A stretch of DNA of 39,328 nt from Tissierellia bacterium. GTDB taxonomy: Bacteria > Bacillota > Clostridia > Tissierellales > Tissierellaceae. The translations under genes and the position numbers were made by a program. The stretch lies in contig JAAYNS010000096.1 in the NCBI GenBank assembly GCA_012520755.1, forward strand, positions 1 to 39,328. Direction: 5' to 3'. Shown in pieces: positions 36,436-39,328 of this stretch. Below the pieces are notes generated by a model. The model was not told the DNA's origin, made no database searches, and saw only the letters and a list, made by a program, of their open reading frames with translations. Positions within the stretch are counted from its first letter, which is position 1; every line of letters begins with the position of its first letter.

Positions 36436-37344
36436 ATGGAAATAAAGAGTATAAAATTTATAATAAATCCTTCATCTGGAAGGCAAACAATGGAAAGAAG
36501 AATTGATGTCTTAATCAAAATGTTATTGGACAATGGATATATAGTTGGAAAATCTTTTACCAAAGAAAAAAATGATGCAATGATTATGGCAAAGAAAGCT
36601 TGCAATTCCAATTTTGATTTAATAATTGCATGTGGTGGTGATGGAACTGTTAATGAAGTAGCAAAAGGGATAATGGAGAGTAGAAGGAAGTTACCTCTTG
36701 CAATTTTGTCAGGTGGAACCGTTAATGATTTTGCTAAATACTTAGCCTTACCAACCAATGCAAGGGAATTTTACAAGTTAATTAAAAGAGAAAGAATGAT
36801 AGAGGTAGATATTGGGAAAGTACATACAATTAACAAATCTGAACATGAATATTTTGTAAATGTTGCAGCGGCAGGCATGTTAACAAATGTGGCCTATCAA
36901 GTGCAAGCAGATATAAAAGCTGTTTTAGGTAGAATGGCTTATTACTTTGAGGGTATAAAGGAGTTAGGTAAACAAAAATTTGACCCCCTTCAAGTAAGAA
37001 TAAAGAGTGATGAATATGAAAATGAGGAAGACATCTTATTGTTTTTAGTTTCTAATAGTTCTTCAATTGGTGGATTTAAGAAGTTGGCACCAGAAGCAGA
37101 TATATTAGATGGATTATTAGATGTGGTCATAATTAAAAAATCTGCAATAACTGATTTAGCTAATATATTTATGAATATATTAACAGGAGATCATATTAAT
37201 CATCCAAATGTAATTTATTATAAAACAAAGTCCGTTTATATAGAATCTAGTAGTATAGTCCCTATAGACATAGATGGGGAATATGGTGGAGAGCTTCCTG
37301 CGAGATTTGAAGTGATTCCCAAAGCATTAAGAATACTAATATAA
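36436..37344 (+). CDS. Diacylglycerol kinase-type lipid kinase (YegS/BmrU/DagK family)
   Basis: Cytoplasmic lipid kinase that likely phosphorylates diacylglycerol to recycle it into phospholipid. N-terminal FIINPSSGR, nucleotide-binding CGGDGTVNEVAKGI (~66-79), LSGGTVNDFAKYL, and C-terminal beta-domain GGFKKLAPEADILDGLLDVVII and IDGEYGGELPARFEV are diagnostic. 302 aa is standard. ATG 36436 behind aggag, about ten bases away. The next gene starts 26 bases after its stop, so the signalling protein may be co-transcribed. Confidence 0.93.
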   Translation: MEIKSIKFIINPSSGRQTMERRIDVLIKMLLDNGYIVGKSFTKEKNDAMIMAKKACNSNFDLIIACGGDGTVNEVAKGIMESRRKLPLAILSGGTVNDFAKYLALPTNAREFYKLIKRERMIEVDIGKVHTINKSEHEYFVNVAAAGMLTNVAYQVQADIKAVLGRMAYYFEGIKELGKQKFDPLQVRIKSDEYENEEDILLFLVSNSSSIGGFKKLAPEADILDGLLDVVIIKKSAITDLANIFMNILTGDHINHPNVIYYKTKSVYIESSSIVPIDIDGEYGGELPARFEVIPKALRILI

Positions 37345-37369
37345 TTATTATATCAAAGGGGCAAGGAAT

Positions 37370-39328
37370 ATGAGGATCATTAATAATAGATATATTATTG
37401 ATAAAATGATACGAAAAGATCAAGTAGAGGAAACGTATACAATAAAAGACTCTTGGAGCAAGGATGCTATTTATCATATGAGAATGCTTGATTCTAACAA
37501 AGATAAAGAAACAATTGAGTATTATTTGGAAGAATTCATTCAAATTGCTCAAATAAAACATAAGAATCTTTTAAGCAGTAATGATTTTGGAATTGTAGAG
37601 ACAATCAATTTGAAAAAAACAGATAATACTAAGTACTATGTTGTATCAGAATATACAGACTGGACTTTATTAAAAATTCAGGATGTTACTAAAGATTTAA
37701 AGCATAGATTGCATTTGTTATTAGATATTATTAGTCTTATTGATTATTTACATTTTAGAGGAATAACCTATAGAGTTTTGTGTCCCTCACATATATTCTA
37801 TTCTAAAGAAAAAGGAATAAAATTAATGAATTTGTCTGTATCTTTAACAAAGCCAATTACTTCCTTCAATGATGGGTTTGATGAGAATTTTTTAGCGCCT
37901 GAAGTTTTAATGAATAATTCGGATTTTGAACTAAATTCAGATAAATATTCTATTGGGATGATAATAAAGTATCTTCTGCATGATTGCCCTTTATCAGATT
38001 CTGGTGATCATTATACATATATAGAAGACTTGAATTTAAGTAGCACACAAAAAGAATTTTTTGATGACATAATAAATGACCTAACTAAAAGTATGCCTGC
38101 CAACAGGAAACTATCTTTAAGAGAAATAATAAATGATATTATTAGAGTTTTCAATTTAAATTATTCATATGACCTTGTTAGAGAACGTGATACACTATTT
38201 TTTAATACTCCTATAGTTGGATTAAATAGAGAAATAAATGAAATCTTAGCAACAGATTGGAAAATTGGAAAGGACATAAATTATTATAAAGGAATTGTTA
38301 TCCGTGGTGGAAGTGGATTAGGGAAGACAAAACTATTACAAGAAGCTTCTTTTAGATTGAGGATGAGATGCAGAACAGTTTATAATATAAACTGCTCTAA
38401 GGTCTTTAATAAACAAAATATCACGAAATTTTTTAATAAGATAACAGAAAAAACACCAGATAATGTTATTGCAAAATATAAAGATGACTTATCTAGCTTA
38501 ATAGCATTAATGACAGATGATTACGATAATTATCAATTGAATGATAGATTAAGGTTCTTTAATAGAATTAGTAATTTTTTCAACGAGATTTCTAAGGATA
38601 ATAAGTTTTATATCATAATTGAAGACTTTGAAAAAACGAACTCTATATTCATACAGTTTTTTGATTTTCTAATTAGGAATATAGATAAGAACCAAATATT
38701 TTTCCTTTTATCTTATAATGAAATTAGTAGAAAATCTGATGAGGTTAGTGAGACTATCTATAATCTGGCTAAGAACTTATATATAACATTTATAGATTTA
38801 AAACCACTATCTTTAGATGATACAGGTAGATACATTAAAGATGTTTTGGGGATTCCTTTTATACCTTACAATTTTGTTACATCGATATATAATGAAAGCA
38901 AAGGGATACCAGGTTATATTAGTTTAATTATAAAAGATCTATATGATAGGGAACAATTGTATGTTGGTGAAAATGGACTATGGGAAATAAGAAATACTGA
39001 TAGATTAAAACTGAATATTCCATCAAATATTAATGATGCTTTGCTAAATCAATTAAAAAGATATGAAGATAGTTATCTTGAGGTTATTAAGTACTTATCA
39101 ATATTTAATATTAAGACAATAAAAGAAGTAATTTTGGATATGGTGGATTTTGATGAGAAAAAGCTTGATGCTATTTTAAAAGATTTAGTTAAGGAACGAT
39201 TTTTGGAAGAGAGCATAGGAGATTTAGGCTATTATTATAGTTTGACAAGTGAAGAATTGAAAAGGTATTTATATTTGAATATGCCTGAAGATATGAAGTT
39301 GGAATTTCATGCTAAAGCTGCTGATATC
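37370..39328 (+). CDS. Pseudokinase-ATPase signalling protein (3' truncated)
   Basis: Not in the ORF track because it runs off the window; 653 codons are open. ATG 37370 behind aaggggcaagg. Residues ~1-270 have the layout of a Ser/Thr protein kinase (IAQIKHKNLLSSNDFGI, YYVVSEYTDWTLL, LIDYLHFRGITYRVLCPSHIFY, FLAPEVL, DKYSIGMIIKYLL) but lack the glycine loop, the ATP lysine, the catalytic aspartate (YRVLCPSHIF in place of YRDLKPxNI) and DFG. This is a pseudokinase. Next comes an ATPase: P-loop GGSGLGKT (313-320) and Walker B FYIIIEDFE (~413), then helical and winged-helix-like repeats. The order recalls large kinase/AAA-ATPase signalling proteins that end in GAF, histidine kinase or GGDEF domains. 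The C-terminal output domain is outside the window. Confidence 0.85.
   Translation, partial: MRIINNRYIIDKMIRKDQVEETYTIKDSWSKDAIYHMRMLDSNKDKETIEYYLEEFIQIAQIKHKNLLSSNDFGIVETINLKKTDNTKYYVVSEYTDWTLLKIQDVTKDLKHRLHLLLDIISLIDYLHFRGITYRVLCPSHIFYSKEKGIKLMNLSVSLTKPITSFNDGFDENFLAPEVLMNNSDFELNSDKYSIGMIIKYLLHDCPLSDSGDHYTYIEDLNLSSTQKEFFDDIINDLTKSMPANRKLSLREIINDIIRVFNLNYSYDLVRERDTLFFNTPIVGLNREINEILATDWKIGKDINYYKGIVIRGGSGLGKTKLLQEASFRLRMRCRTVYNINCSKVFNKQNITKFFNKITEKTPDNVIAKYKDDLSSLIALMTDDYDNYQLNDRLRFFNRISNFFNEISKDNKFYIIIEDFEKTNSIFIQFFDFLIRNIDKNQIFFLLSYNEISRKSDEVSETIYNLAKNLYITFIDLKPLSLDDTGRYIKDVLGIPFIPYNFVTSIYNESKGIPGYISLIIKDLYDREQLYVGENGLWEIRNTDRLKLNIPSNINDALLNQLKRYEDSYLEVIKYLSIFNIKTIKEVILDMVDFDEKKLDAILKDLVKERFLEESIGDLGYYYSLTSEELKRYLYLNMPEDMKLEFHAKAADI

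Follow-up and report, generated by a model that had tools for sequence, protein, structure and literature searches.

Ser/Thr kinases linked to STAND-type ATPases are a recognised class of bacterial proteins (PMC6468293), and STAND proteins with a TPR sensor are described as closed with ADP and as multimerising once opened with ATP (PMC6468293). GGDEF domains need dimerisation for activity (PMC7825114). A C. thermocellum protein of 1826 aa (gi|23020879) was tabulated in 2005 with a kinase, six TPRs and a GGDEF domain (PMC1262709). Here we describe a gene of related design, whose kinase domain has lost its catalytic residues. A preliminary description of this DNA, made from the letters alone, had regarded a degenerate kinase in front of a STAND-like ATPase as an uncommon signalling design in bacteria; that appraisal is not supported, because STAND-linked kinases are a recognised class (PMC6468293) and several more, some of them degenerate, are present in the same phylum.

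The stretch of DNA analysed (the window, 39,328 bp) is the whole of contig C182 in a draft genome of 1.92 Mb and 209 contigs (G000). Its last gene starts at position 37370 of the plus strand and, as the preliminary description stated and our reading of the frame bears out, is open for 653 codons up to the window edge at 39328. There is no stop codon because the contig ends inside the gene, and the frame is missing from the ORF track because it is cut by the contig end and the track lists closed frames only. It is not a chance frame, since matches occur in 45 of 60 relatives, for the most part within ORFs of 1760-1820 aa; the start of the protein, MxIINNRY, is also conserved among homologues. 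The preliminary description considered the output unknown and proposed that the downstream sequence be obtained. A protein search with P0002, the closest homologue of full length (1781 aa), located it in the same genome, on contig C35 (L049:2023-5406, minus strand), where 1128 aa, in a frame open at the contig end, show 68% identity to residues 655-1780 of P0002. By comparison with homologues the two contigs are probably one gene with a single base missing between them, pointing to an assembly that broke at a variable position and not to a real gap. The ends themselves (window 39328 and L049:5408) are apparently one base apart within one gene. The full domain order, over about 1782 aa, is pseudokinase, STAND-type ATPase (NOD), TPR, GAF-like, GGDEF and GAF-like, with the window holding the 5' part, about the first third of the protein.

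The N-terminal domain (residues 1-265, positions 37370-38164, plus strand) belongs to the eukaryotic-like protein kinase fold and sequence family. Pfam Pkinase matches residues 34-222 with 42.2 bits against a cut-off of 31.7 (E=8.4e-11), and a profile of 27 homologues (A1) matches bacterial Ser/Thr kinases of the PknB/StkP type with E down to 2.6e-23. The AlphaFold2 model of residues 1-300 is a kinase fold (pLDDT 82.7, pTM 0.82), for which Foldseek returned M. tuberculosis PknB as the best PDB matches (E=2.4e-13, TM about 0.6-0.7). Both the profile search and the structure prediction that the preliminary description had put forward for this region thus came out in its favour.

Kinase residue positions were anchored on two intact kinases of the same superfamily, L090 and L091. 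In alignment to these, the glycines of the G-loop are replaced by R15, D17 and Q18, and the b3 strand, HMRML (37475-37489), has Arg38 at the position of the ATP lysine. The catalytic loop reads YRVLCPSH (37769-37792) at the HRDxKPxN position, with V136 for the HRD Asp, C138 for the catalytic Lys and H141 for the Asn, and the DFG region, MNLSV (37826-37840), has N154-L155-S156 for DFG. What is kept is structural, namely APE (residues 176-178) and DKYSIG with the aF Asp and Gly (residues 191-196), together at 37895-37957, as well as the aI Arg. With the G-loop, b3 Lys, HRD Asp and DFG Asp all absent, the window protein does not qualify as an active Ser/Thr kinase; this lowers the case for a kinase and leaves a regulatory module of kinase fold unaffected. 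Family residue counts are based on 48 deduplicated members, and a second alignment of 63 sequences, in which a few rows are apparently mis-framed, agrees with them. The preliminary description had listed the glycine loop, ATP lysine, HRD Asp and DFG as lost, and this stands for the window protein; the lysine, lost in the window lineage (Arg), is nevertheless kept in 33 of the 48 members. In 47/48 there is no HRD Asp, the sole exception, L054, being without the APE motif and having SYI in place of DFG. No member of either alignment has the Lys, HRD Asp and DFG Asp together, so that the pseudokinase reading stands after the comparison of homologues that had been proposed for it. In other kinase-STAND proteins of the phylum (L092 and L096, also L093 and L097) the HRD Asp is gone as well, with different replacements (HGGIKP, HGNLNP, HRNVSL; the degenerate motif in L092 and L096 is IIHGGIKP), and because of these different losses pseudokinase-STAND fusions may have originated more than once.

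Behind the pseudokinase lies a P-loop NTPase core of STAND/AAA_16 type (residues ~280-559, positions 38207-39046, plus strand, boundaries approximate). The ATPase that the preliminary description placed here is supported by an intact Walker A, GGSGLGKT (38306-38329), whose G316, G318 and K319 are invariant in alignment A2, by STAND-like motifs and by AAA_16 matches in relatives. In the window protein itself AAA_16 matches residues 308-438 (E=1.6e-5), which agrees with the family proposed, although the 25.9 bits lie below the cut-off of 32.6; the relatives P0005, P0006 and L088 score above it, with E up to 9.8e-20 in relatives. On inspection the remaining STAND motifs are recognisable, though variable in some members: an hhGRExE-like IVGLNREI (38213-38236; IIGREKEI in relatives), a Walker B YIIIEDF (38609-38629; YIIIDDI in relatives), in which Glu then Asp (IIIED) stand unlike the usual Asp-Asp/Glu, and a GxP-type GIPGYI (38903-38920; GNPRYIE in relatives), with TPR_12 following. 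A STAND-type NOD is the best label for this ATPase, as judged from motifs, homologues and domain order. The last part of the window (39047-39328, plus strand) is probably the start of a helical or winged-helix arm leading into the TPRs, cut at the contig end; in full-length homologues TPR_12 matches follow.

The missing half answers the question of output. It carries a GGDEF domain, found in homologues with E~1e-38 to 1e-47 (Pfam GGDEF E=2e-41 in the closest homologue), and in the organism's own C-terminal half the signature is GGEEY at residue 1523, with an inhibitory-site RxxD, RESD at residue 1514, five residues ahead of it. The diguanylate cyclase signature is accompanied by the metal-site Asp, the Asp columns D260, D262 and D269 being invariant in alignment A4. 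The C-terminal 560 aa match solved diguanylate cyclases by AlphaFold2 and Foldseek, with a model pTM of 0.47 that is too low to fix the domain arrangement; the first GAF-like domain is weak by sequence and visible in the model. Neither HisKA nor HATPase was found in homologues; the output is GGDEF and not that of an HstK-type dual kinase. From these apparently intact motifs the protein is predicted to be a diguanylate cyclase. The genome also holds other c-di-GMP components, with about nine GGDEF matches, nine EAL matches, two PilZ and one c-di-GMP-I riboswitch. About 290 nt upstream of the riboswitch (70.7 bits), and on its strand, is a stretch that codes for GGDEF (G000:C143:11009-12019, minus strand).

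Matches at E<=1e-25 were found in 62 of 249 Tissierellales genomes, about 60 of them strong to the kinase-NOD region, and copy number is nearly always one per carrying genome. Carriers named by a distant-relative scan with A3 are Tissierella, [Clostridium] ultunense, Tepidimicrobium, Alkaliphilus and Natronincola; C. thermocellum is not among the organisms named by that scan. Outside the order, a strict search of the phylum with the GAF-GGDEF-GAF module returned only one further family with the same architecture and a degenerate kinase, f63 (L088, L089), the other matches covering the GGDEF region only. In Tissierella simiarum (L029/L108) the gene is split into two ORFs of 985 and 723 aa, and in L055 into ORFs of about 334 and 1403 aa; either natural disruption or sequencing error would account for this. 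One bin, Tissierella sp. cluster2_bin.8 (G019), has three family copies (on C109, C45 and C60) and a contamination estimate of 7%.

Over much of the order the neighbourhood is conserved, running from a YtxH-like and a DUF948-like gene through a lipid kinase, usually a MarR gene, the pseudokinase gene and a LacI/CcpA-like regulator, where YtxH-like, DUF948-like and MarR are names that we take to fit these neighbours. In the window the lipid kinase (diacylglycerol/lipid kinase, DAGK_cat plus YegS_C by Pfam) occupies 36436-37344 on the plus strand, and the pseudokinase gene starts 25 nt past its stop (gap 37345-37369). From this spacing the preliminary description had drawn a possible membrane-related signal. 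The two genes do belong to a conserved neighbourhood, but their close spacing is a derived state, because relatives have marR in between: a MarR-type gene of 139-152 aa separates dagK from the pseudokinase gene in 11 of the 12 relatives read (L023, L024, L025, L028, L032, L034, L038, L039, L053, L057 and L109), and among these 12 its absence is shared by the window lineage with its closest relative, L022, only. The best match to that marR in the window's genome is weak (28% identity). Judging from these sequences, marR looks to have been lost in the window lineage, with a gap in the draft assembly as the possible alternative; the spacing would then reflect a recent loss and is weak evidence for a membrane signal. 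Membrane-lipid signalling via the adjacent lipid kinase was downgraded on this ground. At the other end, the ATG of the LacI-type gene lies 13 nt after the pseudokinase-gene stop in the window's genome, with its ribosome-binding site overlapping that stop. This LacI/CcpA-like regulator is found at about L049:2007-996 (minus strand), and its homologue P0003 scores 270 bits against a ccpA cut-off of 442.

Taken as a whole, we consider it rather probable that the gene encodes a cytosolic, ATP-gated and oligomerising diguanylate cyclase of ~1782 aa, in which the pseudokinase serves as a binding or gating module. This is the simplest union of the parts, because STAND proteins multimerise and GGDEF domains need to be dimers. 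Nucleotide switching, oligomerisation, enzyme activity, the role of the pseudokinase and the signal are what we infer, and biochemistry was found for none of the family members. At rest the NOD would be closed with ADP in place, kept in this state through contacts with the TPR array and, probably, the pseudokinase. Binding of a ligand or of a partner protein to the TPR, GAF or pseudokinase modules would lead the NOD to swap ADP for ATP, upon which it would open and multimerise, bringing the GGDEF domains into the dimer needed for c-di-GMP synthesis, and product feedback would act through the RxxD site. Throughout, the pseudokinase would not phosphorylate and would serve as a binding or allosteric module. 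A more specific suggestion, which we advance tentatively and hold to be possible but somewhat doubtful, is that Tissierellales have retained the pseudokinase as gatekeeper to the STAND switch that controls c-di-GMP synthesis, binding a ligand, a nucleotide or an active-kinase partner to decide whether the NOD opens. If so, it would be a bacterial counterpart of the eukaryotic regulatory pseudokinases, coupled to a second-messenger synthase.

The kinase domain could instead be an evolutionary leftover or a structural cap, adding no regulation of its own to a cyclase that is under the control of NOD, TPR and GAF. An active ancestor is plausible, as kinase-STAND proteins with an intact loop exist in the same phylum (L090, L091, L095), and residues of the ATP site vary within the family. 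However, the domain retains its full length and structural motifs, and the substituted positions of the catalytic loop are themselves conserved, with Tyr at the HRD-His in 45/48 members and Pro in 41/48. Compared domain by domain, its divergence is no quicker than that of the NOD or TPR (39% identity for the pseudokinase against 33% for the NOD to L025, and 68% against 63% to L022), as would be expected of a functional domain. We therefore regard a mere leftover as unlikely, though it deserves some weight. The same residues bear on the idea that the domain is still an enzyme, working alongside the cyclase by an unusual mechanism such as a WNK-like residue migration or an AMPylation-type reaction. 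Nucleotide binding is possible in some relatives, where the b3 Lys (33/48) or an Asp at the DFG position (34/48) is kept; against this, the HRD Asp is lost in 47/48 and the G-loop almost throughout, the aC Glu has become Asn in 34/48, the window protein is without Lys, HRD Asp and DFG Asp together, and no member has all three. Such an enzyme seems to us very improbable.

Some GGDEF domains are degenerate or function as receptors, and the domain here might likewise sense GTP or c-di-GMP, the output being protein-protein signalling via the STAND oligomer. That would sit poorly with the state of the site, since 23 members show little or no variation in the signature (GGEEF/GGEEY), the metal-site Asp and other catalytic positions, and in the wider set the signature and the RxxD at canonical spacing are near-universal (42 of the 43 deduplicated members with the GGDEF domain present in the data); we hold a pure sensor to be improbable. 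It also should be considered that STAND NTPases are common in defence, and that the kinase part matches the PADLOC models MkoA (E=9e-16) and PD-T4-6, as an anti-phage sensor of the Avs, bNACHT-like or kinase-bearing MkoA type might. These matches are confined essentially to the kinase domain, plus one weak TPR match in P0002, and none was found between the PADLOC models and the window protein's own C-terminal half. The gene is, moreover, usually single-copy in a conserved chromosomal neighbourhood, unlike mobile defence islands. With no match beyond the generic kinase domain the anti-phage reading was rejected, and we give it hardly any credence.

The predicted ATP-gated cyclase is of interest because little work has been done on pseudokinases in bacteria, and the literature searched yielded no description of a STAND protein whose output is c-di-GMP. 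The same searches, most subscription journals being outside their scope, returned nothing describing this family under pseudokinase with diguanylate cyclase or STAND with GGDEF, and an order-wide family with a conserved dead kinase and an intact-looking NOD and cyclase appears to be undescribed. It offers a compact test system, with usually one gene per genome and named relatives such as Tissierella and Alkaliphilus, in which two questions become testable: what a pseudokinase contributes once it is joined to a STAND switch, and whether GGDEF domains can be driven to dimerise by STAND oligomerisation. A further suggestion from this family is that, among bacterial STAND-module proteins annotated as Ser/Thr kinases, some are not kinases.

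Comparison with known systems places the family among several partial likenesses. The TOMM kinase/cyclase fusion TIGR03903 joins, by name, a kinase and a cyclase in one chain, and matches partially over the NOD/arm region, the window part reaching 45.6 bits where the cut-off is 705.75. The cyclase of the TOMM fusion is presumably of a different type. MalT and PH0952 share the NOD followed by a TPR array, and their ADP/ATP-controlled multimerisation served as our model (PMC6468293), but their output is DNA binding and they have neither kinase nor GGDEF. The HstK-type giants (Anabaena HstK; L090, L091) have the same Pkinase, AAA_16, TPR and GAF order over 1700-1770 aa, yet with intact kinase motifs and a HisKA_3/HATPase output instead of GGDEF. 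L095, from the same phylum, combines kinase, STAND-type ATPase, GAF and GGDEF in 1809 aa, and differs in its conserved catalytic loop (VIHKDIKPSN), an extra PAS and the lack of a second GAF behind the GGDEF. The 1826-aa C. thermocellum protein, compared here by its description only, is of the same size class and has the same order of N-terminal kinase, TPR and C-terminal GGDEF; the tabulated entry calls it a Ser/Thr kinase and remarks neither on catalytic residues nor on a NOD (PMC1262709). Since kinase-STAND fusions are recognised and this kinase-TPR-GGDEF giant was listed in 2005, the layout described here is not new but a variant of a known architecture.
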